Source: Turritopsis dohrnii (lineage: Eukaryota > Cnidaria > Hydrozoa > Anthoathecata > Oceaniidae). From it: DNA of 64,000 nucleotides. The DNA is taken from contig BQMF02000034.1 of the NCBI GenBank assembly GCA_027922465.2, positions 1,364,001-1,428,000 on the forward strand, in the 5' to 3' direction. This document shows positions 1,364 to 49,200 of the stretch, in pieces (the stretch's first letter is position 1; each line of letters opens with the position of its first letter). The notes beneath the pieces were generated by a model that saw only the letters and a program-made list of their open reading frames with translations, was not told where the DNA came from and did no database searches. The translations under genes and the position numbers were made by a program.

Positions 1364-1711
1364 ATACGAATATCCTGTATAAAGATTATCAATAATAATA
1401 AAAATGCTCGGTCATGTTATCACTACTAGTACTAAATTCCTATCAGAAAAGATGAAATTGTTCAATAAAGACAAAAACTCTGAGGCAATGATTCAGGATA
1501 GATATGTGTCAGGGAAACAAACTTGACGATGATTGAAACTTTGAGATTTTGATTGGCTAATGTTCATGTAAGATGTGATAGATTTGATAGAAAATTAATG
1601 TTAGCAACATATGACTTTAAGACATTAACATACGTATAAATGAGATTGTAAACCATATAACATTTAGCGGACGATTCATATAGCCATCGATTCTCACAAT
1701 GCATGTGTATA

Positions 1712-1910
1712 TACGATGGCCCAGAAGGGTCAAACTGCGCGCACGTCAAGAAATACTGCGCGCTTTCCTTTTACTGCGCGCTTCTCCTTTTTACTGCGCG
1801 CTCTTGTGTAAGCTTACACTGCGCGCTACCATCGACTATTCTGCGCGCTCTTCGTAATACTGCGCGCTTCCCTACGACCACATTGCTACGACCGTATCAA
1901 AATTCGTGTG
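1712..1910 (+). repeat. Left terminal inverted repeat with phased GCGCGC boxes
   Basis: This pairs with the reverse complement of 8171-8371. It contains seven copies of an ACTGCGCGC-type box spaced about 20-23 bp apart, roughly two helical turns, in a region otherwise poor in CpG. Regularly spaced subterminal boxes are the usual layout of transposase binding sites; that role is inferred. Confidence 0.9.
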
Positions 1911-1943
1911 TTTGTAACATAAAGGTGTGAACACATGGCTTCA

Positions 1944-1966
1944 TCTATATATTAATAGCCGATTCT

Positions 1967-1998
<32 letters not shown>

Positions 1999-2452
1999 TT
2001 GTAAGTCACGCAAAATGGTAGATGTGAACTGCGAAAGAAATCGAAGAGTCAGCAATGTAAGATCACACATAAATTATTTCTCTTCTTGTGGGCGACGTCA
2101 GTGTGAAACCATTGTATTGAGACCCTAATCGAATGCGACGTTTAGGGAAAATTATCTCGATAACCAATAGGGATAACTGACGTTTATTGGGGTCCGCGAT
2201 ACAGGCGATGGGGTGACGAAAAATTTGGGTCTAATTTTTTTTGGGGACGGGTCTGTGACGTCATCATAATCTTTGAACAATGATATCTCTGTAACGGTTG
2301 ATCGTAGCGGAACGATCCCATACATTTTTTTTATCAGTTTTTCGAGCTCTACAACATGGGAACACTTTCGGTTCCCAATTCCTTATTTTTATTTTTCGTG
2401 AAGTCAACGCATGCTGAACATGGGCGGCGAGCGACGCCGCCTTGGCGGCTAG
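1944..2452 (+). mobile_element. Non-autonomous Helitron nested in the transposon leader
   Basis: It begins TCTATATATTAATAGCC, immediately after an A, and ends CTAG immediately before a T, the A|T insertion pattern of Helitrons. Near the 3' end GGCGGC pairs with GCCGCC, leaving an 11-nt tail TTGGCGGCTAG; a second GGCGGC in the tail allows an alternative hairpin. A CTGT microsatellite (1966-2001) follows the 5' end. The same 5' and 3' ends recur at 33139-34443 and 34444-35288. There is no Rep/helicase coding. The 3' end lies 13 bp upstream of the HECT ATG. Confidence 0.9.
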
Positions 2453-2465
2453 TTTAGAATTAAAC

Positions 2466-4926
2466 ATGGAGAAACTGATCCGCGATATCGTATCTGAAGA
2501 AATTGAAAAAAAAATTCCTCCATCATCTTCTGCTAATAATACCGCTAACACTGCTAATAATACCACTAATAATACTAATAATACGAGATTCAATACGGGG
2601 AAGAAGAAAGCAGCAAAACCAACTGCCATTGCAAGCAGATTAAATGGGTTGCTTTCAAGTCTGTCAAAGAAAGGGAGTGGGAGTGGTGTCGGGAAAAGAA
2701 GTGGAAAAGAACTAAAGGTTCAAGTGAGATGGGCAAGGAATGAGTTGGATGGACAACTTGTATATGTCAAGACTGAAGATGGCGGAGGAAAAAGATTTAT
2801 AACATTAACTCCAGGGAAACAAGCATTTGGGGATGTTGTAAATAAAGCGATAGAAAAATTTTACCCAGATAGAAAAGAAGATCATGATACAATGGAAACA
2901 AAACTACGTGATAAATTGGGTGAAGATCTAGATTATTTAGAAACCCTTCCCAATTACATGGAGCGGACAGGGTTTTATGCCTCCAAATGTGTTTTTACAC
3001 TTATCACAGGTGATGATGGTGATAAGTGCAATGAAAATATTGTTAGTGATATGTTTGATGATTCTGATGCTGAGGATCTAATGGTTGGTGTAAGTGATCT
3101 AAATTCAACACCAAAGGCAAAGCATTTCGAAAAAAGGAAATCTGATGATCAGCAGCCAGGCCCCAGTCAGAAGAAAACTATGATTTCTAGCTATTTTTCA
3201 CGATGTTTGGACTGTCCTGTTTGTTTTCAGTCGTTTCCTTATGACCAAATTGAGACGCATGCTTCGGTCTGTGCTGAGAACAAGTTCAATTCTATCCTTA
3301 TAAATGACTCAGATGATGTGAACAGTGAAAATGATACAGTGCCCTATGATAATGTTGATGATTATATTGAAGAAGTTCCTAAACCAGTTTGCTCAGTGGT
3401 TTTGTCAGTAAAAGACATTTTAACACCATTATCTGCTGCCCAGATGATTGGACCTTGCCGTCAATTCAAAATAAGGAGGGGAAATGCCTGGCAAGATTTT
3501 TGCACATACACCGATAAGCCTTGGATGAAAGGTTGTAAAAACTTTTCTGTCCAATTTGTTGGTGAATTAGGTATTGACACAGGTGGACCGAAGAGGGAAT
3601 TTTTTTCATGTAAGTTTATTAATCAGCATTATTGAGAAGCAATATTAAGGATTAAAGGAAGCACATGATAAATTGCTATTGACAAATAGATGATGGACTC
3701 TAGATGGTGGTGGTAAATTTATTTTATCATTATTATTATTGTTATTATTATTGTTGTTCTTTAGTATGTCTGACAGAAATTTCTTCAAAGTTATTCCATG
3801 AAGGTGTCCCTGTGAAAAGTACAATGTTAGTTACAAATCGAGAATTTTTCAAGGCTGGGCAACTAATTGCTCATTCGTTGTTACATGGTGGACCCAATCC
3901 TACACTTTTCTCTGATTGGTGTTACTATTATATATCATCTGCAAAGACACCATCTCCCAATGATATAATTGTCCCAAGTTCTTTTAAAGAAAGGGATGAT
4001 ATTAAAGAGGTAAAGAAACTAAATGAAATCATTTTTTCTTCCAATTTTGTGATCAAACAAGATTTGTCAATATATCTTTTTGTATGTTGTTATTTTAGCT
4101 ATTTACAGATGATGAAAATCATTATAAAGCTATTTTGTGCAAGGAATCGTACCTGGATATGCTTAGTTTAATTGGATATAGAGGTGTACCATCTAAAGAG
4201 AAATTAAGTGGCAGGCATGACATCATTCAGTAAGTATAAAATGTTTTTTCTTTAAGCCCATGTTTTAGGGTTTTTTGTATCTCAATCTGATAGTTTCAAA
4301 TGATTTTTGTGATTTCTGTACAGGTCAATATTTTTTAAACTGGAGGTTGAACCTGTTGTATCCGCTTTAACACAACTTGTGGATGGTTTGGAAGACGTTA
4401 TAGGTGTCATTAGAAGCTATCCTGATTCTTTCAAAGTTTGCTTTGTCAAAAAAGATGAAGGCTTAACTAGTGATGAGTTTCTAGATTTTCTGAGTGTCAC
4501 CTTTAGTGAAAAAGGTTCGACCAACTACATAAAAGAAGTCAACACATACAAATACTTGACAGATTTTGTGGAAGAGTGCCATTTTCTTGGTAAGAATTAT
4601 GACATAAGAATTGAAAGATTTATCTTTATTTTCTTATGTTCAAGTATTAAATTATATTAAAATTGCTATATATAGAGACATCACCAGTGAAGATTTCTGA
4701 ATTACTAAAATTCATTACTGGTACCCCTTCAGTTCCTGCTATTGGTTTTGAAAAGAAATTCGTGATATCCTTCCGTCATGATTGTATGGAAAAATGTCAA
4801 TGTAGGTGTGTAAGTTCCACATGTGCTTTGACATTGACAATACCAACGCATTATGCAAATTATGATGTTTTTAAAGAAATGATGATTTATAGTTTGATGT
4901 CTGAATTGGGTTTTGGGCGTTTGTAA
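2466..4926 (+). CDS. Transposon-borne HECT E3 ubiquitin ligase with a UBZ-like zinc finger (G2E3-like)
   Basis: This would transfer ubiquitin to substrates through a thioester cysteine. The exons are 2466-3609, 3765-4009, 4099-4229, 4324-4589 and 4676-4926; all junctions are GT-AG with matching phases, giving 678 residues. I chose the ATG at 2466 (context AACATGG); the longer open frame upstream begins at a TTG inside the Helitron. The N-terminus has an Asn/Thr-rich low-complexity stretch (~25-45) and a basic segment. A C2HC finger with ligands C250, C253, H265 and C269 resembles RAD18/UBZ4 ubiquitin-binding fingers. The HECT domain runs from about residue 310 to the end, with GELGIDTGGPKREFF in the N-lobe and the catalytic cysteine C645 in SSTCALTLTIPTHY. 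It resembles the G2E3-like HECT proteins expanded in fish and invertebrates. It is linked to the integrase gene by shared inverted repeats. Confidence 0.88.
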
Positions 4927-5529
4927 ATGTTGTTATTTCTGGATACTTGTATGTCAGTAGGATTGATGTGATCTAGATCAATTTAACAAAATTTTCTTAT
5001 AACAACTGTGACGAATTTCTGTGCTGAAGGTAGAAAAGGCAGTAGTGTCTTTCTGTTTGGTAATCAAGACCCTATAATGGTGGACATGAAGGTATCGCAT
5101 TTTTACTTTGGATGGCGTGCTTTAAGGAAAATGAATTATGTTTTAAAATTTTCGAAGTCACTTTACAGTTTTGGGTTGCACTAAGTTTTTTGACTTCTTA
5201 GAGTTTTAACATTAACTTAACATTATTTATTCTTCTGTTTATGACATGTTCATTCATGCATTGTATATGTTGCATTATATTATATATATATGTTATATGT
5301 ATTTATATTTTATATTTCTATTTTATTTTTATTTCTATTTTTATATTTATGTATATATATATCTTTGTTGTAAATATGTTTAGTATGGAAATACTTGACT
5401 CGTGTTTCACATTATTTGTTTCTATTTTCTTCTCTAAAATAGTCTGACAATAGACTATTGTCATTGTTATACTGATTTTCATTACTACATGGAGCTCTCA
5501 TTTTAATTCATTTAGAGTAGAACATAAAG

Positions 5530-6856
5530 ATGTCAATGCCAAACTACATTCCTTGTCTCAATTCAACTAGGTTATCTAGTATTGATGAAATTGTGACCAA
5601 TTATTTTCATAATGGCTTCACTTATTGCGAGATTTTGGGTTTCCTTTTAACACAACATGGAATTAGGATAAGTTTATCATCATTGAAAAGGATATTGAGA
5701 AGATTAGGTTTAAAAAGGAGATGTGGCACTGATGAAAATCGAGCGGAGGTGGAAGATGTTATTGCTAACGAGATACAAGAAAGTGGTGCAGTAATGGGTA
5801 GGATATAGCTACACTATACTCTACGGGTAGCTATACTGGCAATAAATGATATCTTGAGGGTACGGAAAGCAAGCTAACACACTTTTAGTTGCTTTCTTAT
5901 TCATTCTAGGATACCGTAAGTTATGGCAAGTCGTTAAGTCATATGGAGTGAATGCACGAAGGTCAACAGTTATGGAGATAATTAGAGAGTTGGATCCGGA
6001 AGGTGTAGCGAGTCGTAAAAATAGACGATTGCGAAGAAGAAAGTATAGTGTTCCTGGGCCTGATCATATGTGGCATCTAGACGGCTACGATAAACTAAAA
6101 CCGTTTGGTTTCAGCATACATGGTTGTGTGGATGGTTTCTCCAGACGAGTCATATGGCTGGAGGTTGGGCCAACGAATAAGAAACCGGAAGTTATAGCCA
6201 ATTATTATCTTCATGCTATAACCAAGTTGAATCGTTTACCAACCAGAATGCGTTCTGATCATGGAACAGAAAACTGTATTGTTGAAGCAATCCAAATTGC
6301 TTTGAGATCAGCTCATAACGATGAGTTCTCCGGACTCGGAAGCTTTATGACAGGATCGTCAACTTCCAATCAAAGAATTGAAAGCTTCTGGTCCCAGTTT
6401 ACGAAAGACCGTCCTTCTTGGTGGCGTTCAGCATTCCAAGAACTTCTTAATTTGGGCCTTATTGATGGTGGTAATTTTTTAATAACTGAGTCGGCGAGGT
6501 ATTGCTTCATGCACTTAATAAGGAACGATTTAAATGAATTGGCAATCCGATGGAACCAGCACATCTTAGCTCCAAGCAAAAAATCCGATTTACCTCGTGG
6601 AAGACCCGATACATTATACTTTGTGCCTGTTTTGTATAACTGTCATCCATGTCATAAGAATGTTGATATGTCTGAAGTGGAAGAATTTCAGGATCCTGAA
6701 TTTGCCATCTTGCAGGCTGATAACCAACCAGAATTTATTGAATTTGCAGAAACCGTTCTGCGATTTAATAATTTCGATAGGTTGAAGCCTGAGACCTTTC
6801 GTGAAGGTCTGAAAATGCATATTACTTTATTAACAGCCATTGAAGAGTATTCATGA
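5530..6856 (+). CDS. IS3EU-type DDE integrase/transposase
   Basis: This is the likely transposase of the 1712-8371 element. The exons are 5530-5797 and 5910-6856 (phase 1), giving 404 residues. The N-terminal ~80 residues hold helix-turn-helix-like segments, followed by a GYRKLWQVVKSYG motif of the kind that precedes the catalytic core in bacterial IS3 OrfB proteins, and a basic linker. The rve-type core keeps all three acidic residues: D147 (WHLDGYD), D206 (RSDHGTEN) and E247 (NQRIESFW), a D-58-D-40-E arrangement. The E motif and the following WW segment match integrase-core proteins found in multiple copies in fish and invertebrate genomes. There are no internal stops. It begins 603 bp after the HECT gene on the same strand, so the two probably have separate promoters. 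The IS3EU assignment is by motif and by the 6-bp target duplication. Confidence 0.9.
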
Positions 6857-7565
6857 CTTTAATTAGAATACAGTATATCTCGTTAGGCCAGATCAATTTT
6901 TCTGTTTCTTCCGGTATACTTAAAGTAGTCGCAGTCGGACTTTTCTGTAATTCTTACTTCAAAAAATTGGAAGATTCGAAAAATGTTTAACTATGCAACA
7001 AGAACCAACCCAACACCCATGCCTTTGATTTCAATATATTTAAGAGCAAAAAATCAACTTCCTTTGAAGTTCGTGACGCGATGGATTGAACCATGTCATT
7101 AAAATCTTAACTTCACAAATATTTTCGAATCTGAAAATTCTGATTGGCACTTTCCATTTTCCGACTGTTCTGACACAGGTTTTACCTTAAGTGGATAAAG
7201 TTTCGCATGGATTAAATTTCGCGGTTTTAAATCCACGCGAAATTGAATTTTGAAAAACTCGAGTTTTTCTAAGGGCTAAAGTAAATCAGACATAATTTTC
7301 AATCATTCTTTGCGAAATTTAATAATTGTATTATCTCCTTGGTTAAATGTACTTTCACGTTTCTTGAGGCAATGAAGAAAATAAGGATTATCAAGGCAAG
7401 GGAAAATGACGGAAATATTTTGATTTTTAATATATTTTCAGAAACAAAAGTTAAAAATATTTTACAAAATTATACGAAGCTTTTCGTTCTCTCGAACATC
7501 TTCAGGTATATATGTTACAATAAAATTAAAACCATACTACAAGTATAAAATTGTCTAGGGGATTC
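6857..7565. other. Non-coding 3' region of the transposon
   Basis: AT-rich DNA between the integrase stop and the Penelope-like fragment. The short open frame at 7339-7548 has low-complexity composition and no recognisable motif. Confidence 0.4.
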
Positions 7566-7830
7566 TTAAGTATACCGTTTTTGAAAAGTCGTACGTAAAA
7601 ATTTTATGTCTAATTGGTCGTGAATGGTGGGTTTATATCTCATGATGTAGAAAGCTTCCATGGTTTTACGCTTCTTTTTGTTCTGTGGTGCCTTAGTAAC
7701 TATTTTCCATGAGAAAGCATGACCATTGTTGTTCAATATATGTTTTGCCGGTTCCGAATTACCATGCAGTTTATCGTGTTCAAACCACCGTACTGTCGAA
7801 TTTCTTTTGATTTTTGATTTTATATTACAT
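7566..7830 (-). pseudogene. Penelope-like retroelement fragment (C-terminus of the GIY-YIG endonuclease region)
   Basis: The minus-strand frame reads through EPAKHILNNNGHAF and then RKTMEAFYIMRYKPTIHDQ. A His-bearing helix followed by a Leu/Met-Glu-Ala motif and a KPxxNxQ-like end is the pattern at the C-terminus of Penelope-like (and some DIRS/LINE-associated) GIY-YIG endonucleases. The reverse transcriptase and the GIY-YIG catalytic start are absent, as expected for a 5'-truncated copy. It is nested in the IS3EU-like element, opposite in strand to its genes. The assignment rests on motif memory only. Confidence 0.55.
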
Positions 7831-8170
7831 AAATAGTTGTTTTCAGAAGAGTAGACCCATCTCCAAATTGTGCTCAAAATTTGAACAGTTGGAAAGGAAA
7901 AAAATGGAAACAAAAAACGATGTTTTAGAGAAATTGAAAATACTTTATTTGACTAAAAAAACAAAGCGTGTTTTGCTCTATATGTCTTGTTAAAACACAC
8001 AAGTCAAACTTAACTCGTGTTGTAAATGGAGCTACGTTTTTACATACAACAAAGTTCAATTTCTAGAACTCATTTTGAATATTTAAAATTTTTGCTTTAT
8101 GTAAAAATATTTCTGTCAAATGGACTAATTAAAAAATCACACATTTTTCCTTTAATCACACCATTCGAAA

Positions 8171-8371
8171 ACACGAATTTTGATATGGTCGTAGTTAGTG
8201 TGGTCGTAGGGAAGCGCGCAGAGTATTATGAAGAGCGCGCAGAATAGTCGATGACAGCGCGCAGTGTAAGGTTACACAAGAGCGCGCAGTAAAAGGGAGA
8301 AGCGCGCAGTAAAAGGGAAGCGCGCAGTATTTCTTGACGTGCGCGCAGTTTGACCCTTCTGGACCATCGTA
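8171..8371 (-). repeat. Right terminal inverted repeat with phased GCGCGC boxes
   Basis: Its reverse complement matches 1712-1910 with scattered substitutions and small indels, including the same regularly spaced GCGCGC boxes. The terminal CCATCGTA is followed at once by the TGTATA duplication. Confidence 0.9.
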
Positions 8372-8377
8372 TGTATA

Positions 8378-8877
8378 GCCTTGCATTCTACTTTTCTTTT
8401 CTGAGTTGCAGTTGCAGTTCCATTTCAAGAGCCATATTCTTGTGTTAATTTACATGCTGGTTGAACTTGGTACAAAGTAAAATTTATTGTTTGCAAACTC
8501 TTATTCCTGTTTCATATTTATGACTTCCTGAGTTTACTGTCGTTTACGTCTGTTTTATTGTGATTGTAAGGATAAACATGCTCCTAAAGTTTTCTTTTTT
8601 TCTTTTCTTTTTCTTACAATATCGTCATTAGGATTAGGGTTTTCTTCATAACCATACATTAGAAATTGTTTTTAGGAAAGATAACTAAAAATAACATAAA
8701 ACAATTGAAGAAATAAATCCGATGGTCTTAAATCATGATGTTGTAGTAGGTAAATGAAAAACAATATTTATTTCCAAAAAATCATTATCGGTATCCAATC
8801 TTACCTTCATTCAAAGAAAATCGCTGGTAGGTATGAGTAATTTCATATTGTTGTAGTGCAACCATCCCACAAATTTA
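8378..8877. other. Non-coding spacer between two transposons
   Basis: AT-rich host flank between the IS3EU-like element and the Harbinger. I see no gene or structured repeat in it. Confidence 0.4.
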
Positions 8878-9570: not shown

Positions 9571-10129
9571 AAATTAAAAAATTAAAACTATATTAAGAAC
9601 TTTTCTTTAATTTTTTTAATTCTTTACTGACGTTTTTTTAGTTTAAAAAGACATAATAAAATATAAAAAAGATATAATTAGGCCAGGTGTATGTTTTATT
9701 TCCACGTGTGCATAGTTCATTCTGATTGGTTAAAACTGTAGATTTTCTTGAGCGAGCGATTTCGCACGCTCTAGAAGTTGAATTGGCTTCAACTACAGAA
9801 AGCGACCGCGCGACCAAATGTATTGCATAATAATGCTCAAGTTTTTTAAAGTGAGCATGCGCAAAGTCGTGCGAATTCGCCCGCGCGGCCAAGTTCGCTT
9901 AAGTGGAAACCCGCCTTTAGGGAGATTTACGAAATCGACGAGCCTGCTACACGAAAAAAATCAATAACTTGTGAGAAGTTTTTTAAAACTGTTCAATTAA
10001 AAAGTTACTTCAGAGGTTTAGAGCCTTTTGTTGTATCAAAAGAAACATCATTATTGTGCACGCTTATTTCAGGCGTTGATGTAAAGTTTCTAATGACTTT
10101 GTAAGGAAAAATTGCGATATTGGCGACTG

Positions 10130-10320
10130 AGTGACGAACAAATTTAGGTCCAAATTTGTCTGGGTACGGAGTCTGTGACGTCGTTAAAGTCTTTGGTCGA
10201 CAATATCTCAGTACCGCTGGTTGCAGTGAAACGATCTCACGCATTTTTTTGCTGAGTTTTTCAGCTCTACAACTTGGCTAACCTTCCGTTCACGATTCGG
10301 TGCTTTGTTTTCGTCATATT
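10130..10320 (+). repeat. Degenerate Helitron-family relic
   Basis: This resembles the interior of the Helitron at 1944-2452: both contain a GACGAA...AAATTT...GGTC block, TCTGTGACGTC, an ATATCTC-GTA block and TTTTTC-GCTCTACAAC in the same order. Recognisable Helitron ends are missing here. Confidence 0.6.
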
Positions 10321-11163: not shown

Positions 11164-14100
11164 TTAGTTAAGCTTTTTGTACAGCAGTAATTGCACTTGG
11201 CTTAAACAAGAAAATATTATGTTACAGAAAATATTGTACAAACCACAGATAATTAAAAACACAGATGGATTTAAGACATTCTCCAGAATAAAGTAAACTG
11301 CTCGAAGCTTTTTTATGCCATCTTCACCACTTAAATCGTAAACAAAAGAAAACTGACTGACCAAATTAGTGATAGTTAGAATACACAAGCTTGCAAGAGA
11401 TAGCATTTCCAAATGATTCACTGACTGTGCCTTGTATGGTGACACCTTCACATGTACAACTAACACAATAACGAGAATTGGTGCGATGATGCCAAGTCGG
11501 TATAACGGATCGATGAGAAAAACGGCACATGAAGCAATGGCAAATCTGGATAGTAGCTTCCAAGAGTCCCAAAAAATTGCACCTTCTCCATTTTTTTTTC
11601 TGCGAAACGGATCCTCAAACAGTTTTAGCAGAGATGTTCTTAACTGCTCATTTCCAATCTTATTTCTTTCCATTCTGAAACAATTAGCATATAGGAATAG
11701 CAACGGTGCGATTACTGGAAACACGAAACAGAGGAAGCATTTTTTGTTGGATATCATATGTCGGTTCAGCATCGATATTGCAAGATACAAAGCGAAAGGG
11801 AACGGCACAATCCACAAAAACAGGAACAAATACGTCAGGTTTTGCCACCATGTCCAGCATTTGATTTCGCCATTAATAAATAGAACGTGGACGTCATTGA
11901 TCTGTTGACAGTTGATCATCATCAGAGAAAACAGAGCCAATGATTTGTAGTTTAGCATTAAAAGACGTACAAAACAAATATATACCAAATGTTTGTAAGG
12001 TCCTTTTGTGTTTATATTTTGGGTCACAACTGCAGCATTTTCACTTATCACATGACTCTCCTCGTTTTCGCATTCGGAGAGTTCATAGTCAGTAATGTAC
12101 TCAAAGCGATTTTTCCTGCAAGCGATTGTTGCTAATTTTTTATACAAGAAGCAAACGAATAGAAGTATTCCCAGTAACGATATCATCAACGTAAAAAACA
12201 TCACATGCTTAACAACTAATTTGGAAAGGATGTCAAGCTTGACCATCGGACAAATTCGTGCGGGAATTTTGAATATGTCTACGTTAAAAATAGCTGTTAG
12301 AATTTCATCACTTATATTTTTCGATCGTTCGTAACCAACATTTATTTGAAAAAGCGCTTTTAGTTGATAAAATGATACCAAAACATCGAAGATCGCAGAT
12401 ATCGGTATGCTATTCTGCTGATGATTGGTTAAATGATGAGTTTCATCGGTGCTTGGTTGGCTAGCAGGAGAATCAGATTCGTTACGCATTATTAACATCT
12501 TTGATTTTGTGAACATTTGTATGATAGATAGTCGGAGTTTTTGCAACAATTCTGGAATTTTATTAAGAAACATGACGATGACTACATATATAACTGCAAA
12601 CGAAAAATATATAAGCCAGAATGTCAATGTTTCTTTGCATGTCGCCTCTGGTATGCATTTCATTGAGAAATAATCCAGTTGATATCCTTTTTTACATGCT
12701 CCGCATAATACTCCTTTTCTATGACGGTTACAAGTAGAATATGAAGTACATTTCACCCCATGTCTCGAGCAACAGTACTGCTCTGGACAAGGCAAGAATG
12801 ATATTTCTTTGCTGCCATTTTTGTATCCCCAATAATTTTCCTTGCTTGTGATGTTTTCGTGACAAATTGCACCAGTTGGACAAGCTAGACAAACTTTCAT
12901 GGATGCTTTTGTTGTGTTTTTTACATAAAATCTATCTGTGGGATATATGTCATCTTTGATTCTGGATTTAACTGTTATGTTTTCTATATAAACATTGTCT
13001 GTGGAATATATGGTATCTTTGATTTTGTTTTTAACTGCAGTGTAATAACCACGAGGACAATGTTTGCAGTAATAATTTAATTCCTGGATAAGAAGTCCTT
13101 CAGCAGGATCACGATTGTAAGTACGATCCCAATAAAAACTGTGTGGACATGTTATCTCGAGTTCAATGGAAATATGACTTGGTCCGAGATTTGGATCGTC
13201 AAATGGATAAATAACTGTTGCAATAGGGTTAAGTAAATGTCCCGGTAATGTATCTATTACAACATCCTCAACTTGCAGATGCGTTGTTCTGTTGCTTGCT
13301 TTAATGGAGATTAAACTTCTTTCGTTGCCATTGATGGAGTTTGTAAAATTAAGTGCTTTTAGGTGAACAAATAATTTATTATCAAGACAGATGTTTCTGA
13401 TTGCAATAAGCATTCCTCCATCGATGTTATTGGCGGATGACGATGTAAATGTGATGTTACTATTAGAAGAATACAGAAGACTTCCAGAAGTTTTGCATCC
13501 TGACCAGACTATGTTTTCTAGTACTCCAGAAGCGGATTTAAAAGCAAAGTAATGTATGTTAGCATCTATATTCGCGTTGGTGTTCTCAATATTCAAATTG
13601 TAAAATGACCCTTTTGCTCCATCATTAGTAGTAAACATATCAGCTATGAAATAATTGCCAAAGAGTACTCCATGAGATAAAACAACAGAGGAATTATTTG
13701 AAACACTGACCATGGCAGCGATCCTGTTATTCTTTAATGTTAAATTTGTGATAGTGGTATGACTTGCGCTTGTGCTAGTAAGTGTCTGAAAATAACCTTT
13801 GGTGTTCTGCATGGAAAAATCATGAAGCAATGTTATACTGTGTTGTAATAAGATTATAGGGATATGGTAATAATCCCAATAGTATCCATTGAACATTGGG
13901 AAAAAAGAACCTGATGCTTGTAAAATGTTAACATTTTCTAATCGAACTCTGCAACTGTCAAATTTAAAAAGCCTTGTCTTTATTTTGATGTCAGAGAAAT
14001 TCATATGAAACAATGAAACAGTGCTGTGTCTGCATGAAACTGCTTCCAAACCATGCACATGGTTAACGTGCAATCCTTTTACACTCACACTGCTGTTTTC

Positions 14101-16623
14101 CGTCGTATGGATCATAATTACTCTCTTGACAACTTCAAGTTTTTCCAAACCTGTCCCATTTCTATACAACTTCACGCTTGAATTTCTTTCTTCATTCATG
14201 ATCGATATGTTACCCATTATTGCTTCCTCAATACGCGCTGAACTTTTTCTGATAGAAAAAAGACCTGACTGCACTAGATTGTCAAAATTATTTGCATGAT
14301 ATGAAGTCTCGCGTACAAAAACATTTGAAGATTCGGCTGCTAGCATTATTGTTGTATCTACGTTATTACTCAAAATGGTGTTCATTACTATTGCAGTGGA
14401 ATGTATCAAGCACACAACAGATAAACCATTGTTTTCCATAATAAGTGTACTGTTCATTGAAATATTGCTGTAAACTGCCATAATTCCACATGATGAATTT
14501 AAATGGTTATTTCTGTAGAATGCTGTGGTTGATAAGACTTTGCTGATGTCTTTATCAAAAAGTGTATGATTTCCATTTAATTTGGAAAATGTATTTTTTC
14601 TGAATTTAGTGATAAGGGTGGAGCTCACCCGAATCACTGGCGACCATTTTGTGCTAATATCAGTGAAAGTGCATCCTGTAACGATAAGTGACCGAATGCT
14701 GTCAACTGAGATGTATGTATTTGCGGATTCTGTATCTTTCATGAAAGGCATCGTATGAACTTGAGAAAAGGTCACATTTTGTAAATGGGCTGTTGTATAT
14801 GGAGGATTCTGCATTGAACTGGAGGCTGACATGATCATAAAACTCGAATTAAAAACTGTATGTGAAATGCGTAAGGAAATGGTAGCGGATTGTGAAACCA
14901 GTGAACTATTTTTAAAAGAAGAATGAATAACAGTTACTAATGAGTTTTGGTCGGTTTTGGATACATTTAAATGCGGCATGATTTTGATATAAGATCCCGA
15001 TAGAAACTCTGTTGAATACAGTGACGCCTTGACACGACCGGTGATTTGCATAGATGCAGATTTTGAACAACGTGACATGAAGACTGAATTTCTTATCTGG
15101 ATGTTTGTTTGATCATTAATGGATTTTACAAGGATGCCAGAGTAAAAAGCAGTGTTTGATATTTCAATTATGGTTGGTCCCGATACGCTACAAGAAATAT
15201 CTTGACCAATAGTAGCATTTTTGATTGAAATTTGACGATGAACAGGATGATAACGTAAGCTCTGTTCTTTGATGAAAATTAAATTTGCTTTGGTTTCCTG
15301 CACTTTGAAAATGGAATTTTTGATTTCAACATAGAAAGACTGAAGAATACCTCTTTGATCATTTTCTGCAAGGAGCCCAGTATCGGCAAATGTTATCCCT
15401 TCCACATGAAGATAAATATATTTGACTTTTACTGAAACATCCAAAAGATATCTAACGTATCTGAAGCCTATGATAATAGGCTGAAAATTACTCCTCGGGT
15501 TTTTAACTATTGTCATATTGACGGACTTTGTGCACAATTGTATTGGACGTTGAATAACATACTTGTTAGCTTTGTTTGAACCACCATCCAGTATTATTGT
15601 ACCACTAAAATCAAGTTTAGCAGACAGAATATATTCGAAAGTTTTGCACGGTTGAACTTGGCTTCCGCAATTCTGATTGTCTTGTCCAAATAAAGACATG
15701 TGACAAATTGCTGCGTTTGCTAGTGGAACTGAAACAAAGAAAAAATAGACAGATTAGAAGAGTTTTTTGCAATGTGGATACCATAGCTTCTGTTCATGTA
15801 AACGCGGAGATAGGGAAGAAGATTTAGGGTTAATAAGCTGTTTTGAAAAGCTCATAAACTGTTTATAAGTATTTTACATCGTATAATTTGTTAAGAATAG
15901 TGCTGTACAACAAATAGGAAATAAGAAACCTTCTTGAGTTATCAATAATTACTGGAATTTCGGATCAATAACTCATGGACAAGTTATTAACTGTCTTTTG
16001 CTGCACCCTATAGTAGGGAGGGCATGCGACCCAAAGAATTTGTGTGCTCAATTGAATAAGTTGGTATATCGATATGATTGTTCGCATGATAACTCATAAG
16101 GTTGCTACAATATCAAATCTTGCAAATGCCAGTTGCATATGCTCAGTGTTTTGAATTTCAGTCGGTGTCAATGGTCACAAAAATATGAAATAGTGTGATT
16201 CATCTTTCTTCTGTTTTCATGTTAAATACAAACGTTTTGAGATCTAAAGCTAATGAGTTCGTTTGCTCACAATTGCTACACGGTAAAAAATAATTTCTTA
16301 TGACAAGAAAAAAAAAACTTTCAAGAAGATAAATTTGAAAAATATGAGATATATTATCATTGCCGAATAGCTAGAAAATTTTTTAAAAATAATTTAAATA
16401 ACTTTTGGTAAGTAAATCAAACATTTCGAAAAAGCGGATGTGAGAATTTAAGAAAAAATATCTAATGTTAGAAAAATTTTCTTAGTAAGATTTTATTTTT
16501 TACAGTAAACTTTGTTTTCATTGTATCGTACTTGTGCTTTTAGATGGACAAGTGAAAAACCTATCGAGTGTTAACAACAAAGCTTTACTTACCTAAAACT
16601 TGCAAAATTAAAAGGTAGTACAT
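11164..16623 (-). CDS. Large extracellular beta-helix protein with Cys-rich linker and multi-pass membrane C-terminus
   Basis: I predict two exons: 16593-16623 and 15728-11164 (donor GTAAGT, acceptor TTTCAG, phase 1), giving 1,531 residues. Exon 1 supplies a hydrophobic MYYLLILQVL that joins VPLANAA to make a signal peptide; the second exon alone has no secretion signal. Residues ~30-880 consist of short strand-turn units with many Asn-x-Ser/Thr sites and isolated Cys, typical of a right-handed parallel beta-helix. Residues ~890-1030 are Cys-rich (CKHCPRGYY, CLACPTGAICHEN, YCCSRHGVKC, LCGACKKGYQ). From ~1040 to the end there are about eight or nine hydrophobic segments, the first being FWLIYFSFAVIYVVIVMFL. 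This architecture occurs in uncharacterised families of early-branching animals. The ligand and function are unknown; a surface receptor or adhesion role is inference. The huge second exon is uninterrupted. Confidence 0.8.
15729..16592 (-). other. Intron separating signal-peptide exon from main exon of the beta-helix gene
   Basis: Donor GTAAGTAAAG (reading minus) and acceptor CTTTGTTTCAG with a pyrimidine tract. I see nothing else in its 864 bp apart from AT-rich sequence. Confidence 0.7.
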
Positions 16624-33138: not shown

Positions 33139-34443
33139 TCTATATATTAATAGTCGATTCTCCGTTTGTCTGTAAGTCACGCAAAATGGTAGATTGAGTT
33201 GTGAGAGAAATTATTTCTTTTTTTGTGTGCGACGTGAGTTCGAAGCAAATACATTGCAACCCCAATAGAACGTGACCTTTTTTTTGGCTGGTGAACCAAT
33301 CGAAATAATGTTTTGTTTTTATTATCATTGTTAGTTTTATATTCCAAGGACCACCGTTGACTTGGCTTTGAAAACAATACATCAAATAAATACAAAGAAA
33401 CTAACTGATTAAACATTTTGGACAATCAGCAGCAGTGGCAGAACGTGGCAGCATATTCGTTTTGCCAGTGTATCCTAACGCTTGCCTGACTGTATGAGAC
33501 GGGTGAACTTTTTTCCGAGCAATCAAAATGTTTAAAAACCGATAGGTAAAAAAACAGTATTATGAAACAAAATATTTTTTTGCTTTGTCTTAAAAGTTGT
33601 CTTAATTTCTTTTAATCGATTTCTTTTAATCTATTTTAATCTGATCGAACGTTTTTTTATTCACTTCATTCATTTAGCACGTGCATTTTTTTCTCCTCCC
33701 GTGTGATCTTTTTAAGAGAAATCATTTTTTCACCTACTTCTGATAGCACCCATGTTAGAGCGCGTAAAACAAAAGCTAATTATAAGTTGAAAAGTGATAT
33801 TTGATTGGTTTAAAATCGTAAATAAAAACCACGTGAAGTTCACGTTCGGAATGCATTGTGTAAAGGTCGACCTTCACTTAGCCGTGCAAGCGCGGCGCTT
33901 AGACGATCTATTGTTATTAAAACAATAGATCGCCTGAGCGTAAAAGGTGTTCGAAATGTTACCTCCACTTTCATACGAATAAAAACAAAAAAATGCTTTG
34001 CTGATTACGCTTTTGTTTTATACTTTTCCTGAAAGCTGATTGGTGCCATCAAAATCGTGTCGCCTGAAAGTAGAAGTTGTTTCAACTCCCAGACGAACAC
34101 TTTTCTTTCGTATACGAATTGGATATTGCGCAATGTCTAATTAGAAAAACAATAGATCGTCCGAGCGCCGCGCTCGCACGACTAAGTGGAGGTCGGCCTT
34201 AAAGCAAGAAAGTCTGCTGACATTTTAAATGCAACTGCGACAATGAACGGCTGAGTTAAGAACATGCAAGATATTTGAAACACCAAGAACGCATTTCTCT
34301 TCACGTTTAAACGAGCTTTGTTAAGCGATAAAGCCAGCAGCAAAGGGAGTCTTATCGCTGGTTTTAAGTGCAATAATTTGGAGCAGGTGGTGATACAGCG
34401 CAGGCTGAACATGGGCGGTGAGTGACGCCGCCTTGGCGGCTAG
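33139..34443 (+). mobile_element. Helitron, first of a head-to-tail pair
   Basis: Starts TCTATATATTAATAGTCG after an A (33138) and ends in the GGCGGT...GCCGCC hairpin plus CTAG. It is followed directly by a second Helitron start. No Rep/helicase. It contains a nested Harbinger MITE (33864-34199). Apart from that insertion its first ~650 bp match the second copy closely; the 3' halves then differ until the last ~40 bp. Confidence 0.88.
33864..34199. mobile_element. Harbinger-type MITE nested in a Helitron
   Basis: The inverted ends AGGTCGACCTTCACTTAG... and its near-inverse run for about 50 bp, including GCGCGGCGCT and ACGATCTATTGTT. TAA duplications lie at 33861-33863 and 34200-34202. An inner palindrome around ACAATAGATCG repeats the subterminal sequence. 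Confidence 0.82.
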
Positions 34444-35288
34444 TCTATATATTAATAGCCGATTCTCTGTCTGTTTGTTTGTCTGTCACGCAAAATGGTA
34501 GATTGAGTTGTGAGCGAAATTATTTCTTTTTTTGTGTGCGACGTGAATTCGAAGCAAATACATTGCAACCCCAATCGAACGTGACTTTTTTTGGCTGATG
34601 AACTAATAGGAATAACGTTTCGTTTTTATTACTTTGTTAGTTTTATATTCCACGTTGACTTGGCTTTGAAAACAATACATCAACTAAATACAAAGAAACT
34701 AACTGATAAAACATTTTGGACAAAAAGCAGCCGTGGGAGAACGTGGTAGCATCTCGGTTTGCCAGTGTATCCTAACGTATCCTTGCCTGACTGTCTGAGA
34801 CGGGTGAACTTTTTTTTCGAGTAATGAAAATGTTTAAAAACCTATAGGTAAAAAAAAATATCATAAAACAAAATATTTTTTTTTGCTTTTGTCATAAAAG
34901 TTGTCTTTAATCGATTTCTTTTAATCTATTTTATTTTATATCAGATCGAACGTTTTTTTTATTCACTTGATTCATTTAGCACGTGCCTTTTCTTCTCTCC
35001 TCCCGTGTGATCTTTTTAAGAAGAGAATCCATTTTCCCCTTACGTTTGATAGCACCCATGTTAGAGCGCGTAATTTTTTTTAAACAAAAGTTAATAAAAA
35101 GTTGAAGTTTTCTCTCTATACGTTTTGAGTGTATTGTTACACTGATAAAAGATTGGTTTTACCAGAGGTTGTGACTTCGAATCTGCTTCTGGTTGTACGA
35201 GCCGTTTATAAGGAAATTTGACGTTTATTGATACAGTGATACAGAGCAGGTGGACATGGGCGGCGAGCGACGCCGCCTTGGCGGCTAG
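34444..35288 (+). mobile_element. Helitron, second of a head-to-tail pair
   Basis: Begins TCTATATATTAATAGCCG immediately after the CTAG of the first copy and ends CTAG followed by T (35289). It has the same 3' hairpin and a CTGT/TTGT repeat after the 5' end. No coding capacity. Confidence 0.88.
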
Positions 35289-35289
35289 T

Positions 35290-42173: not shown

Positions 42174-43291
42174 TCAATCTTTGTTTTTTGCTTGACCGAC
42201 TGTGTCGAATTTGTGGAAAGTGTCCTTTTCCATTTGATTTAAACATTTTTTCAAAAATTCGCTCGATCCCATTCGACTAGCAGCTTTACTAAGTTCAACA
42301 GTTGGTTTTAAAATCTTGCCATTACGTGGGACGATATTGGAACGCTTAGCTAAACTTTGAATAATAGTATCCATTTGTAATTTATTTACACTGTCTTTGG
42401 TTTCTATAATAGTTTGTGCTTGATGAAGTTGGGTAGTTAATGTTTTTATAAGATTTTCCTGTTCCTTGACCATATCAACTAGTTCCTGATGTTCTTCATA
42501 AACATTGCCTTTCACATTACCATTAACAATCTCCTTGATTGGTATCTTTTCATTAAAACCAGGGCGAGTGCTCCTTTCTGTGTTGATATATTCCTTCAGT
42601 TGATTCAAATAGTTAACGAAATGAAGTTGGAATGTATCTTGAAAGTGTTTGAATTCATGTTTTAACGATTTGTGATGAGTTGTTAAACCCTCCATGTAAT
42701 CTCTTAAAAAGATTATTTTTTCTTCAATGAGAAATTGTTTTGTGTAGCCATCATCAGCATTAAAATTCTTTTTGGTTTTCAATTCCTCATTGAGTTTCTG
42801 ATTCAAATTCTCTTGGAGAGCTAACCTTTCGGACATTTTCTTTTCCCGATCTTTCGTTTCTTTAGATTCAGTTAAAATCTCATCGATGTGGAATTGGGAA
42901 TTATTTAAACTTTTTTCTAACTGGGATATCATCTCCTGCAATTTTTCTATTCCATCTTCTTTTTCTAACAATATTTTTTCAAGCTCCTTCTCCTTGTTTT
43001 TGGAGACGAGTTTGATTTCATTCAATTCAGCTCGAAGTGCTTCAATCTTGGCCACATATTTGTTTTCCTCCTCACGCATTATTTGTAATCTATTAATCTC
43101 TGATTGAGCTTCCACAAGGCCATTCTTATGAAATCGATTTTCATCCCGCTGCTCAATAAACTGCTGATGCAAGTTTTCTAACTGGCTACCTTGATCTTCA
43201 ATGATGGTCCAGTCCTTTTCAATTTGAAACTCAGCTGTTTTTAGTTTCTGTTGCATTTCATCAATTCGTGTCAATAGATGCATATATTGAG
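42174..43291 (-). CDS. Coiled-coil gene exon 7 (C-terminus)
   Basis: 371 codons plus TGA, acceptor TTTCACGTAG. Heptad-rich to about 60 residues before the end, then a basic tail. No usual AATAAA was found in the next few hundred bases. Confidence 0.8.
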
Positions 43292-46200
43292 CTACGTGAA
43301 AAAAGACAGTGTTAACGAAATAAAGGGATGGCGAATGACGATCAATGATCATCAAGATATCATAGGTAAAAAAATGATAAGAAAATCTGACGCCATCTTT
43401 AATAAATTTTTACCTTCATTTTTAATTGAATCTGGTACAGTATAGGAAACATCATCTTTCATTTCATTTAAAATTTCTGTTTTTGCATTTTCTTGATGCA
43501 GGAGCAATTCTTTTTCTTTCTTAGCCAAGGCCTCTTTTTTTTCGTCCTCGTAAGAGTTTGTGAGATTCTCCACTTTCCTATCATGGCAAACTTGCAAATC
43601 GTCCATTTCTGCCTGTAACGTCTTCAGAAGCTTTTCCAGTCTCTCTATTTCCTGGCATTGTATATGATTTTCATTGCAATAAGTTTCTTTTAAAATCAGT
43701 TCTTGCTCATATTCGTTCTCTTTCTTTTGCAGCTTCAAAAGCAGTTCGTGATTGTGACGTTTCAACATCTCGTTATCGTTTCGAATCTCATTAACAGTCT
43801 TCCCAGGCGCCTCAACTATGATTTCTTCTTCCAAATTGAACGGGGATGGAGATATAGTATCATTTCGTGAACTTAACTCGACCAAAGATTCCGAACAAGA
43901 GATCAAATTCAATTCAATACACGTCTGGATCTTTCCTTTAAGGCCAGTAATTTTTGCATTTGCTTTGTCCAGTTTCTCGTGAAGTTTATCAATGTACGAA
44001 TCTTTTGATATTGATTCTAGTTCTTTAATGTAACATCGAAGCTGATCGATCTCCAAGCAACATTCTTCAGCCAGTTGTATTAACTCTTTTATTACGTCAG
44101 TTTGCGATGACGTGGTTTCTACTATAAGTTGACTTGAAATTGCGTTAAAACTTGGTGTTTCCATCTCGGCAATGCCGTCTTCATTTTGCTGTTGAGGGTT
44201 AAGTTTTAGAGATAATTTAGTGATGGCGTCCTCTTTCTGTCTCAAATCTTCTAGGAAGTTATCAATATCTTCATTTTGATTTCGTATGATCTTGTTCTTT
44301 TCTCTGATTTTCTCACGCGATAACTTCAATTTCACTTTCAATTTATGTACGTAGTCTTCGTTTAAAACTTCATCACTGTCACCCAAGGTACTCTCAACGT
44401 CTGATACATCACTTAAACCTAAATCATTTTTAAAATGTTACATAGTTAGTACTATTGATTTGCAAGAATCTATTACAAGAATCTATTAAAAGTTATTATC
44501 TCTGTAATTTGAACATCGAGGAACCCAATAAATGTTTTGATTTATGGAGAGTTCGAATTGTGGTGGTTCATTTACAAGGAAATGATACGAGGACATTTAA
44601 ATTGATTCCAGGAATATGTTAAAGCGTAGCTGAATGCAGAGCGAGATTCGACAAACAAAATATTCATTGAATTTCTTTTGTTTTAAGAAAAAAAGACAGT
44701 CCTATGTGTGTTGTCAAAAATGGCGGCCAAGCGTCATGAAGCGATCAAAATGATAAGTCACAAAAGCCACTTTTTACTTCATCTATACGTTTTCTGTACA
44801 ATCTCAGTTCAGATAGACTTTTTTCAAAGAAGCTTTTAGACTTTTAAACAAGATTTAAATTGTATCCTGCCTTATAAGGATGATGAGCATCCATTTATAG
44901 CCTCGCACAGAGCGAAATCTGTTGGTGTTATATCGATGGAAGGAGGAATTCCCTGATATCCTGCTAATTGTCAAGGCAAGATAAAGCATTAAATTTATCA
45001 AATCCTGTGAAAATATAATCAGGGAAGACCACGATCTCCCACGACTTTCATTTTTCTGGGGGCATATATCTACGCCATTTTCTTTTCCTCTATATCTTTT
45101 TCTGTCACTTTAATCACGTGACTTTCACTAAATTCTTGTATGTCATGTGATATTATTCTGAACTGGACACCTGTAATGAAATGGCAGAAATGTTCTATTT
45201 CAAAACAAACGAAAACTCGGTATGAATATCTACTAGGTGCAAGAAATCGCTTCGTTTCACTGTGGTTAGGTTATGGCTGAGTGTGTTGCGTCACTGGCTG
45301 CTTCAGTTTTCCTTATTATGTTTGTCTATTTCATATGATTTTGCATTTTCAGATGTAGATGTGTTAAGATGTATGTAGACATGAGGTAGTAAGCTTTTAT
45401 CTATAAGAAATATGCAGTCATGTTTTTGTTTTTAGATTGTGCATGAAATACAAACAATGTCTTTCTATAATACTTAAATGAGTGGCAAGAGGAGACAATG
45501 ACTGTGCCAGGGAGAAAAACAGATATAGCAGAGTTTTGAAAGTATTAGAATTACTGGTGATTAATGTTCGTGCTTATATAAATCAATGATAAAAATTCCT
45601 GACTTGATATTGTAATTATTGACTTTAGGACACCCGTGGTGGAGTAAAGTATTTAAAATACCCGTGGTTTCTCCTCCTACTACTACTACTACTCCAAGTT
45701 ATGAGCGTTTTCGTGCAGCGTTCACATGACATCGTTGCGGAATTCGCAAATTTGGTCAAATTAGGACTTCCAGTTGACCAATTTTCATGAAAATTTGCAC
45801 ACAGCACAATTGAAAGGTGCTGATTTCAAATTTGACAATGATTTTGTCAGGTTTGACTAAAATTGGCCAATTTAGGCCAAATTTGGACCAAATTTCGTAA
45901 ATTCTTCAATTTTCACAATAATTTGCACGGATCACATTTGAAAGGTACTGATTTCGAATTTGACAATGATATTGCCAGGTTTGACTAAAATTGGACAATT
46001 TAGGCCAAATTTGGACCAAATTTCGAAAGTTCTTCAATTTTCATGAAATTTTGCAAGGATCACAATTAAAAGGTGCTGATTTCAAATTTGACAATGATTT
46101 TGTCAGGTTTGACTAAAATTGGCCAATTTAGGCCAAATTTGGACCAAATTTCGAAAGTTCTTCAATTTTCAGGAAATTTTGCAAAGATCACATTTGAAAG

Positions 46201-49200
46201 GTACTGATTTCGAGTTGGACAATGATATTGCCAGGTTTTACTAAAATTGGGCAATTTAGGTCAAATTTGTCCAAATTTAGAAAGTTCTTCAAATTTCAAA
46301 AAATTTTGCGCCGATCACATTTGAAAGGTGCTGATTACGAATTTGTCAGTCATTTTGTCAGATTTGACCAGAAATGGGTAATTCGGGCCAAATTTGAATC
46401 AAGCTTAGAAATTTCCGCAATATTCATAAAAATTTCTACAACTCACAATTGGAAGTTGCCGATTTTGAATTTGCCAATCGTTTTATTAGATTTGAACATA
46501 ATTTGGCAATTCGGCAACGTTGTATTTTGAGATTAAATAATGCATCGTTGTGTTACGTCCTGAAGTCTTCAAGCCAAGCGGCTTCTTGTTCTTTTATTCG
46601 ATTCCTCTAATAATTTAAGTGCAGAATGGTTAAGATATCTGCATTTCAATGCATTCCTTAAATCATTAAGCTTGAGCCATTGTTATTTTACTTGGATGGA
46701 ATTGAAGACTGTTTGTCCAATAAACTGAATCTTCCGTAAGCAAATAGTGCACAGTGGCTGTGTTGATAATCCCAGCTTTGAACGATATGTTCAATGAAAG
46801 AAAGTTAATTGTTGTCAAATCTGATATGATAACTGGCAATGCATGAAAATACAAGATGACGTATAAGAGAGAGAATAGACCTCGATATTATTGCTGAAAA
46901 AGTGTTATCAAAGAGACAAAAATGCTGATTTTGGATGTTTTATTTTTCAGTTATGGGTGAATATATACTTTTGTGTTGATACAAATTGCCTGCACATTAC
47001 AGAAAATATATTCTCATGTAAAAAATAACAAAAATGCTATTAACCGTCACTTCCTTTAATGAACAAATAAACACATGGTTTCAAACCCATTTTTGCTGTG
47101 CCTAAAAAAATGTGGTTATATTCTCTGAAATGTGGTTATATCTTCTTGTATGTCGTACTGTTTAGTATTATTTCATTGTATTTTACATATTATATACATT
47201 GTCTATTTTATTTAGTATAGTTATCTAATTAATTAATTTATTTTATATATTATATATAATTATTATATTTAATTTTTCCCTTTGAGAACTGCACATCATT
47301 ACCCTAAACCCTTGGTTCTTAGTCCTTCTGTTCTTGGTCATTTTTTCAGCTTTTTAGATTTTCAGGGTTTTTTTTGTTTTTTGCTTTTCCCCATGTTTTT
47401 ATATTTTCATTCTCTCTACTAGTTAATTATCAGAGAGGAATTTTAGTGCATTATATATATTAGCATACATTTCTCTTCTCTGAAAGTGCTTGACAGTCAG
47501 GAACAATTTTACTTTACTTTAAAACCAGTTCAGTTAGCTGATGAATCCGTGAAGGAAGAAACTTAAAGTTCAACGAAAAATAGTTTTCTTCTTTTCATCC
47601 TTTTATAAGTATGTTTATATTTATATATAAGACAAAAAAACACACAAGAAAATTTCACAATATTTCGCTTTTTTAAAAATCTTTGTCAAGTGTTATGTTT
47701 ATATTTATATATACATGCAGTAGGTCCACATCAGTATTGTACTGCACTTTTCAACGAACTTCTTTACCAAATAAATTATCAATCTCCATACCTATCTAAC
47801 ATGGTTTCAAATTCATTTTTGTTGAGTCTAACAAAATGCGACTTTCGCTAGTCTTGTAAGTCAATATCAGCTATCTTGAGTTTTAAAATTTTTTTGAATT
47901 GTGTTGCCAAAATTAATACATCTTTATTTGAAGGTCACATAACTTATATATATATTTATTATCTGCAGAGGTCAATTTAGTATATTTGTGGTTATACCAA
48001 GCTATTTCCCTCAAAATAAAACATGTTTTTTTTTCAAAGCAGGCGTTCTAAATATATTTAAGCTAACGTTTGGGTAATTTTTAAGATGCTGAGCATATTA
48101 CCCAGTTCACTTTTACACTCTTTTCTCCTGATCAAAATCCCAAATCAAAATCTTGTCGCTTTGAACACTATTCCGCGTATAACTAGGATAAAATACAATT
48201 CAAACAGAAGTTTGCGCGATTTATTTCACTTCTTTTCATTGGTTGAAAATACGCTTTCAAGCAATTTAATTGGCGAAAAAAAACAATCACATACATTCCT
48301 GAAATTCCTGACAACACACATAGAACATAGCAAAATCTATCGCTCTGCATCCAGCTACGCTTTAACGTATCCCTGATTGATTCGAATTAGATTGAACTCG
48401 AATTATGGGAGTTCAAATTATAAAAATTGGAACAAATTTTTTACCATTATTATTGATTCTTGGATAATTAAAGATTGCCAAATTTGTCGAACGTCCCATG
48501 GGAAAAGACTGACTTCTTTTGAAGTTTCGATTGTATATATCTGTCATGTTATCTTTGGAGACATGAATTTCTGGTAAAGTGATGTCACCATCTTCCAAAG
48601 ACATTTCAGTAGCTTGTTTCGAATCATCTGAAAAGAAACAGATAAAGAAAACATTTTTGTTTGCAGAAAATTAAATTTTTGAGACATCCTTTTAGGTAGG
48701 AAATCGTAATGTTTAATTTGATATTCTAAAATACATATTCTTCAATAAGTGCCCGGACATTTCGCAATTTCTTATGAAGTCATGATCACCATAAATTAAT
48801 TAATCCATCAATTGCATGTATTTTGATCATAATTTTTAATAATATCAAGAATTCCAACTCATCTCTTTCTCTTACCACTGGACGCTTATTAGAAATAATT
48901 TAAGTTTTCAGAATCCCCAAGGGCTCTTATAGGAGAGTGGGCATTTGAAAGAGAGAAGCAGCCTTTTAGTATATAAAAACAGTAAATAGGCACGTATTAG
49001 GGAAGCCGTTTAAAAGAGTCTGAGTACATATTTGAAGCTAGGAGACATCTTCGTTTGGTTAGAATGTTAATGCAGCCACGTTTTGATTCTTTACATTTTA
49101 TCTAAACATTTACCGATTTATAGTTCGTGAATCAAATTTAGCATAGATTTAAGTGATGAAGAAGTCCGCATGGACAGTTAAACCTAAATGGAACATTTAT

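Follow-up and report, generated by a model that had tools for sequence, protein, structure and literature searches.

IS3EU/GingerRoot elements are DNA transposons with TA..TA termini, target-site duplications (TSDs) that are usually 6 bp long, and a DDE integrase without the HHCC motif (Kojima, 2023, PMC10045372). In fungi, IS3EU elements with 6-bp TSDs and TAYGG..CCRTA ends carry genes for TET/JBP dioxygenases and alpha-kinases, and the dioxygenases have been proposed to aid escape from methylation silencing (PMC12730594). Links between transposons and the ubiquitin/SUMO system are also in print, in the form of proteases encoded with the transposases of Ginger1 and Mutator; Ginger1, from hydra and other animals, carries OTU or Ulp1 protease domains, for which its authors propose a ubiquitin pathway role in transposition or repair (PMC2836005). 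In RAG-like transposons, RAG1L and RAG2L are convergent (PMC7204232). We analysed a 64,000-nucleotide stretch of the genome of the hydrozoan Turritopsis dohrnii (contig BQMF02000034.1, positions 1,364,001 to 1,428,000; hereafter the window), in which positions 1712-8371 are, on sequence grounds, a complete IS3EU-type DNA transposon of 6,660 bp. Beside its DDE integrase, this transposon very probably has another gene of its own, for a HECT ubiquitin ligase, and we see little doubt that HECT, as predicted here, would be a regular, selected component of these elements.

Compared by published description rather than with Repbase sequences, the window element shares with IS3EU/GingerRoot the TA..TA termini, the 6-bp TSDs and an integrase without HHCC, in agreement with the family assignment made in a preliminary description of this DNA. 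The difference lies in the ligase: the main text of PMC10045372 contains neither the word 'ubiquitin' nor HECT together with IS3EU. The fungal elements are likewise IS3EU transposons with accessory genes and 6-bp TSDs, but their accessories are a dioxygenase and a kinase, whereas here a ubiquitin ligase is found in an animal. Ginger1 is, like the window element, an integrase-type animal DNA transposon tied to the ubiquitin/SUMO system; however, it has 4-bp TSDs, and its protease is fused to the transposase and removes ubiquitin or SUMO, whereas the ligase here is a separate gene. In the full-text collection searched, with Repbase entries and subscription papers outside its scope, not one paper mentioned IS3EU and HECT together, and searches for HECT as a transposon partner gave nothing on point among the listed titles and abstract openings; a prior description of HECT in IS3EU is possible.

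The features of the transposon are listed below. The exons of both genes were joined by hand, with GT..AG at every intron.

1706-1711, unstranded: left TSD, TGTATA (from the sequence)
1712-1911, plus strand: left terminal inverted repeat (TIR), starting TACGATGGCCCA, with seven copies of CTGCGCGC spaced 18-25 bp
1944-2452, plus strand: nested non-autonomous Helitron, TC..CTAG, between A and T, 509 bp
2466-3609, plus strand: HECT exon 1, with the N-terminal region, the CPVC-x11-H-x3-C finger and the start of the HECT domain (hand splicing)
3765-4009, plus strand: HECT exon 2 (hand splicing)
4099-4229, plus strand: HECT exon 3 (hand splicing)
4324-4589, plus strand: HECT exon 4 (hand splicing)
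4676-4926, plus strand: HECT exon 5, holding the stop codon and, within SSTCALTLTIP, the catalytic residue Cys645 (hand splicing)
5530-5797, plus strand: integrase exon 1, N-terminal part (hand splicing)
5910-6856, plus strand: integrase exon 2, rva_4 integrase core with D147/D206/E247 (hand splicing, Pfam)
6857-8167, unstranded: 3' non-coding part of the transposon, portions of which recur in non-autonomous copies, most of them ~1.1 kb
8168-8371, minus strand: right TIR, with seven copies of CTGCGCGC
8372-8377, unstranded: right TSD, TGTATA (from the sequence)

The exact TGTATA duplications and the inverted repeats of about 200 bp, both reported in the preliminary description, are present. 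The two TIRs are 93% alike over ~200 bp, with an ungapped 160-nt arm at 94%, and both begin with TACGATGG. In each TIR the seven CTGCGCGC copies follow one another at intervals of about 20 bp, and these 14 copies, all inside the TIRs, are the only ones in the window, where 0.17 would be expected; we read them as putative protein-binding arrays. The termini, TACGATGG..CCATCGTA, have the TA..TA form of IS3EU/GingerRoot, and the TSD has the same length of 6 bp. The element starts with TACGA and thus does not match the TAYGG..CCRTA pattern of the fungal TET-bearing elements. Rfam gave no match in window positions 1500-8600.

Between the TIRs, the HECT and integrase genes both lie on the plus strand and both are open, so that two intact multi-exon genes on one strand are indeed present, as first described. 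The predicted HECT protein has 678 aa in five exons with zero internal stops, and Pfam assigns it PF00632 HECT (1e-9; 38.9 bits against a cut-off of 23.9) and nothing else at E <= 0.1, the finger being unscored there; G2E3, by comparison, has PHD-type fingers ahead of its HECT domain. Cys645, in the SSTCALTLTIP motif of the C-lobe, is invariant across six aligned HECT proteins, and the zinc finger that had been reported beside this active-site cysteine is also found: an Asn/Thr-rich N-terminal stretch is followed by CPVC-x11-H-x3-C and then by the HECT domain. We take the spacing of this finger to be that of RAD18-type UBZ4 fingers. The C-x2-C-x11-H-x3-C spacing occurs in the window protein, in database proteins P0123, P0124, P0125 and P0127, and at T. 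dohrnii locus L035 (C83); the pattern was unmatched in P0001, P0002, P0126 and L038 and in the part of L059 examined, and the sole hit of the zf_UBZ profile was a sub-threshold one in P0124. A ubiquitin-binding finger beside a ligase domain would suit a protein that is drawn to repair sites or to chromatin bearing ubiquitin. The motif KTMISSYF, just N-terminal of the finger, was considered as a PIP box, but it is unconserved in P0123 and P0124 and the reading was dropped.

Relatives of the window HECT in the protein database numbered at least two in one search (of the best 8000 candidates by shared words) and six in another. A PDB sequence search gave weak matches to Rsp5/E6AP, and an AlphaFold model of exon 1 (mean pLDDT 35) was too poor for use. 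In P0125, a predicted eukaryotic protein of 1170 aa, a HECT domain occurs together with the transposase domains HTH_psq and DDE_1, which hints that a further group of transposons has HECT, unless the gene model is a fusion. At L038 (C471), a HECT relative has an N-terminal region without a CPxC..H...C match, and its integrase is 10 kb away.

The predicted integrase has 404 aa in two exons, again with zero internal stops, and matches the rva_4 integrase core in Pfam at 6e-32. Its three acidic residues, already noted in the preliminary description, are D147, D206 and E247, spaced by 58 and 40 residues; in an alignment of 33 integrases the first of these never varies and the other two hardly do. 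No HHCC pattern is present in residues 1-140, which fits the IS3EU/GingerRoot feature. The protein database holds 370 relatives, and among the 120 matches listed the closest, 58% identical, is from the hydrozoan Hydractinia symbiolongicarpus. A PDB sequence search with an integrase profile gave no match, and the viral contig collection gave no relative. The genome contig collection yielded one decayed contig of 3.8 kb, from a sponge-symbiont metagenome-assembled genome, in which HECT was not found and which is perhaps carry-over from the sponge.

If HECT is a regular partner of these integrases, the two should lie together beyond the window. We placed two integrase searches of the T. dohrnii genome against three HECT searches, which after merging gave 193 integrase and 243 HECT loci. 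Ten of 113 integrase rows were dropped from the first search (N-terminal exons) and 19 of 109 from the second (11 further pieces and 8 loci repeated from the first search); HECT exon pieces were merged by hand and by script, and among the loci counted for HECT some are short remnants and others are probably host genes. The searches scored the best candidates only, so the counts are lower bounds. A HECT lies within 5 kb of 95/193 sampled integrase loci and, reciprocally, 95/243 HECT loci are paired, against ~1.3 expected by chance when loci are spread evenly along the assembly taken as a single line. Pairs number 42.5 per kb of gap where the gap is 0-2 kb, and 0.03-0.5 per kb where it exceeds 12 kb, and the paired integrases are as little as 38% identical to that of the window. 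The placing of HECT and integrase in one mobile unit, proposed from the window alone, is borne out, and HECT is a recurrent component.

The pairs have a usual layout. Taking the nearest HECT, 87 of the 95 are convergent, five are same-strand with HECT first, one is same-strand with the integrase first and two are divergent; the same-strand arrangement first described holds for the window, one of the five, but is not the usual one. Within multi-copy families the spacing is constant: in one case it is 1,442-1,445 bp at each of five loci, of which two share a contig, and in another 756-780 bp at each of ten. This is what movement of HECT and integrase as a unit would produce. One could instead suppose that HECT genes are separate mobile units that repeatedly inserted beside IS3EU elements, an idea to which the joining of HECT to HTH_psq and DDE_1 in P0125 and the position of one other HECT (C8, below) lend something. 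The predominance of convergent pairs, the constant spacing within families, and the presence of HECT inside mapped TIRs in both elements with known ends make this extremely unlikely. A two-gene convergent layout is also that of the RAG-like transposons. RAG1 itself carries a RING-type ligase region, a further likeness in that ligase activity is attached to a DDE recombinase; the transposase superfamily is a different one, however, and the ligase is RING rather than HECT.

Detection of HECT depended on the query. Among integrases less than 49% identical to that of the window, only 3/87 had a HECT within 5 kb after two HECT queries. At C481, the 1.8 kb of DNA next to an integrase of this class contains a convergent and very divergent HECT (Pfam 2.6e-7) that the first two queries had missed, and using it as a third query raised the count to 49/87. 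HECT is near 9/15 integrases in the class 55-84% identical to the window's, and, grouped by identity to the integrase of a second element, L059, near 16/19 at >=85%, 0/1 at 55-84%, 7/29 at 49-54% and 13/41 at <49%.

In the integrase family nearest to that of the window, the HECT gene is convergent in most cases and only 27-34% alike to that of the window. Outside the subfamily to which the window HECT belongs, the closest HECT (C8:250500-252163, at 38-44% depending on the exon) has as its neighbour an integrase that is truncated and of another type. This integrase (L061, C8:248500-250500, positions 1922-1257, minus strand) is directly downstream of the C8 HECT on the same strand, carries an NQRIERLW motif and is 30% identical to P0075. 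The closer HECT beside the other integrase type hints that HECT genes may have been exchanged between element lineages.

A second element with both ends present is divergent from the window's.

C533:124500-130500: L059 element, 4,769 bp, both ends present

L059 has ends TACGGTGGCCCA, the TSD AAAAAG and TIRs of ~129 bp with ~20-bp arrays of their own. Its termini, TACGGTGG..CCACCGTA, are again TA..TA as in IS3EU/GingerRoot, and since it starts with TACGG it matches the TAYGG..CCRTA ends that the fungal TET-bearing IS3EU elements are described as having. The integrase is open, 394 aa long and 39% identical to that of the window. HECT lies on the opposite strand, tail to tail with the integrase, and scores 3e-16 in Pfam (long last exon checked).

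We then considered what the relatives of the window element itself retain. A genome search with the left repeat, in which the best 40 of 204 candidates were scored, gave 41 matches. Two of these belong to the window itself, and the 20 best matches outside the window were taken as copies. They consist of the repeat and 3' non-coding sequence and are mostly ~1.0-1.2 kb long, the longer ones being L049 (1.8 kb), L056 (~4.4 kb) and L055 (~6 kb, with Helitron-like repeats inside). Copies that have the same repeats and no HECT, which the preliminary description had set against its own proposal, thus exist, since 0/20 contain HECT coding sequence; but 0/20 contain integrase coding sequence either, which marks them as non-autonomous derivatives, and in 14 further derivatives parts of both genes survive. 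Matching 6-bp TSDs of varied sequence flank 14/21 related copies tested and are absent in 7/21.

The 14 derivatives came from a genome search with the HECT protein (80 matches; the best 65 of 700 candidates scored), which led to 26 non-window loci with ~1.5-kb flanks. At 14/26, a remnant of HECT exon 1 is joined directly to the integrase C-terminus on the same strand, the integrase resuming from aa 348-358 (its last ~50 residues) and the bulk of both genes being deleted. The junctions fall into at least two classes (HECT ~87/integrase ~353 and HECT ~216-229/integrase ~358), and some of the 14 loci form near-identical pairs (L025/L026, L028/L029 and L032/L033). At two loci (L021 and L023) HECT and integrase are convergent, and at 10/26 no integrase piece was found in the short flanks. 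The junctions imply parents with HECT upstream and integrase downstream within one element, as in the window. Fused remnants of HECT and integrase occur in L012, where the two share a frame, and in other non-autonomous copies.

The HECT remnants also carry a record of selection. When 22 loci were compared with the window, the differences were in excess at third codon positions in 21/22 (one-sided P < 0.05; best 1.5e-5), and dN/dS was 0.16-0.41; several of these loci are near-identical copies and so not independent. Decay after deletion would raise dN/dS, making the estimate a conservative one. By these comparisons, HECT is evolving under purifying selection.

Several observations weigh against HECT as a general component of these elements. 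No HECT was seen within 5 kb of 98/193 integrase loci, including 22/29 and 28/41 of the two classes 49-54% and <49% identical to L059's integrase, and some integrase families may truly be without HECT; since the C481 HECT had escaped the first two queries, the 98 loci may mix true absence with limits of detection. Ends have been mapped around an internal HECT for two elements only, the window's and L059, the other pairs being judged by distance and orientation, and unpurged haplotypes or local duplications may account for some of the repeated copies. The short integrase remnants show a third-position excess at P < 0.05 in 0/15 loci, with dN/dS of 0.24-0.55. Finally, the window is the only full-length copy found at the DNA level: segment 3764-5529 is complete only there, followed by C443 (half covered, 90%) and C476 (a sixth, 71%).

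This single full-length copy, together with the 20 best-TIR copies that carry neither gene, is what one would expect if the window transposon had captured a host gene once and carried it passively, without a role, and transposons do capture genes. Against such a capture stand the pairing at 95 integrase loci, its convergent orientation and its reach to distant integrases, and the low dN/dS of the remnants, and we consider it very unlikely. The derivatives with both genes, the third-position excess, the HECT of L059 and the genome-wide pairing argue together that HECT is not chance cargo. The preliminary description was thus right to place HECT inside the element but not in treating it as one-off cargo; it is better seen as a selected partner gene.

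What might a transposon gain from a ubiquitin ligase? Most likely, HECT would benefit the element by ubiquitinating either the complex of the integrase or some host factor. In this scheme the integrase would bind the ~20-bp arrays in the TIRs and, with a stagger of 6 bp, move the element; the element-encoded HECT would ubiquitinate a member of the transposition complex, or else a host protein present there, such that the complex would be taken apart and repaired, or silencing relieved. Because the pairing recurs across related elements, protein tagging may serve their movement or survival. That the place where HECT acts is the transposition complex or the repair of it, and not some other part of the cell, is a tentative proposal. 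HECT could equally serve the element through host silencing or host genes, for example by removing a repressor, and we give this a real though minority share of the probability: HECT is a separate gene, unfused to the integrase, and a role in silencing escape has been proposed for the fungal dioxygenases (PMC12730594), but the present data do not set this apart from action on the integrase. HECT might also limit the element, by turning over the integrase and keeping copy number low. The full-length window copy is single at the DNA level while non-autonomous copies are many, as self-limitation would have it; yet a parasite living in one genome with other integrase donors would not easily retain a gene for such restraint, and the L059 family is multi-copy with HECT near most of its loci. 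We regard self-limitation as unlikely.

In its widest form, the proposal would be that animal IS3EU-type transposons in general are two-gene machines of integrase and HECT, usually convergent and requiring ubiquitin ligation at a step of their transposition cycle, and that loose G2E3-like HECT genes are their debris; we put this forward as possible, at somewhat less than an even chance. The preliminary description had offered these elements as the source of the numerous HECT and integrase-core genes of some animal genomes, and in T. dohrnii they would account for many. Transposon pairs of this kind would be a source for lineage-specific expansions of both gene types, and annotation may count them as host genes. 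T. dohrnii is studied for rejuvenation, and transposon-borne ligases taken as host genes could mislead gene-family comparisons. A selected, separate ligase gene across many families also makes the idea of ubiquitin in transposition directly testable.

One stretch of the interval first described as the element is a later arrival. Positions 1944-2452 do lie between the inverted repeats but are not the element's own sequence. Helitrons begin with 5'-TC, end in a 3' hairpin followed by CTRR, and insert between A and T, and this stretch has all three hallmarks, its hairpin being GGCGGCG/CGCCGCC followed by CTAG. Four related copies (L024, L027, L030 and L036) are uninterrupted where the window carries these 509 bp. 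From the uninterrupted copies, the TC..CTAG ends and the A/T insertion site, we conclude that it is a nested Helitron and not part of the transposon, which measures 6,151 bp without it. The Helitron, with 13 bp between it and the downstream start codon of HECT, may have separated HECT from its own promoter. Its ends recur in tandem in L055, at a spacing of 851-871 bp, and Helitron-like pieces are found elsewhere in the window at 10114-10298, 33161-33211, 34396-34520 and 35251-35289. Beyond the transposon, the minus strand at 42174-55806 and 11164-15753 holds long open frames with coiled-coil-like sequence, as well as a 1,529-aa frame that resembles a membrane protein (judged by eye); these are probably host genes.

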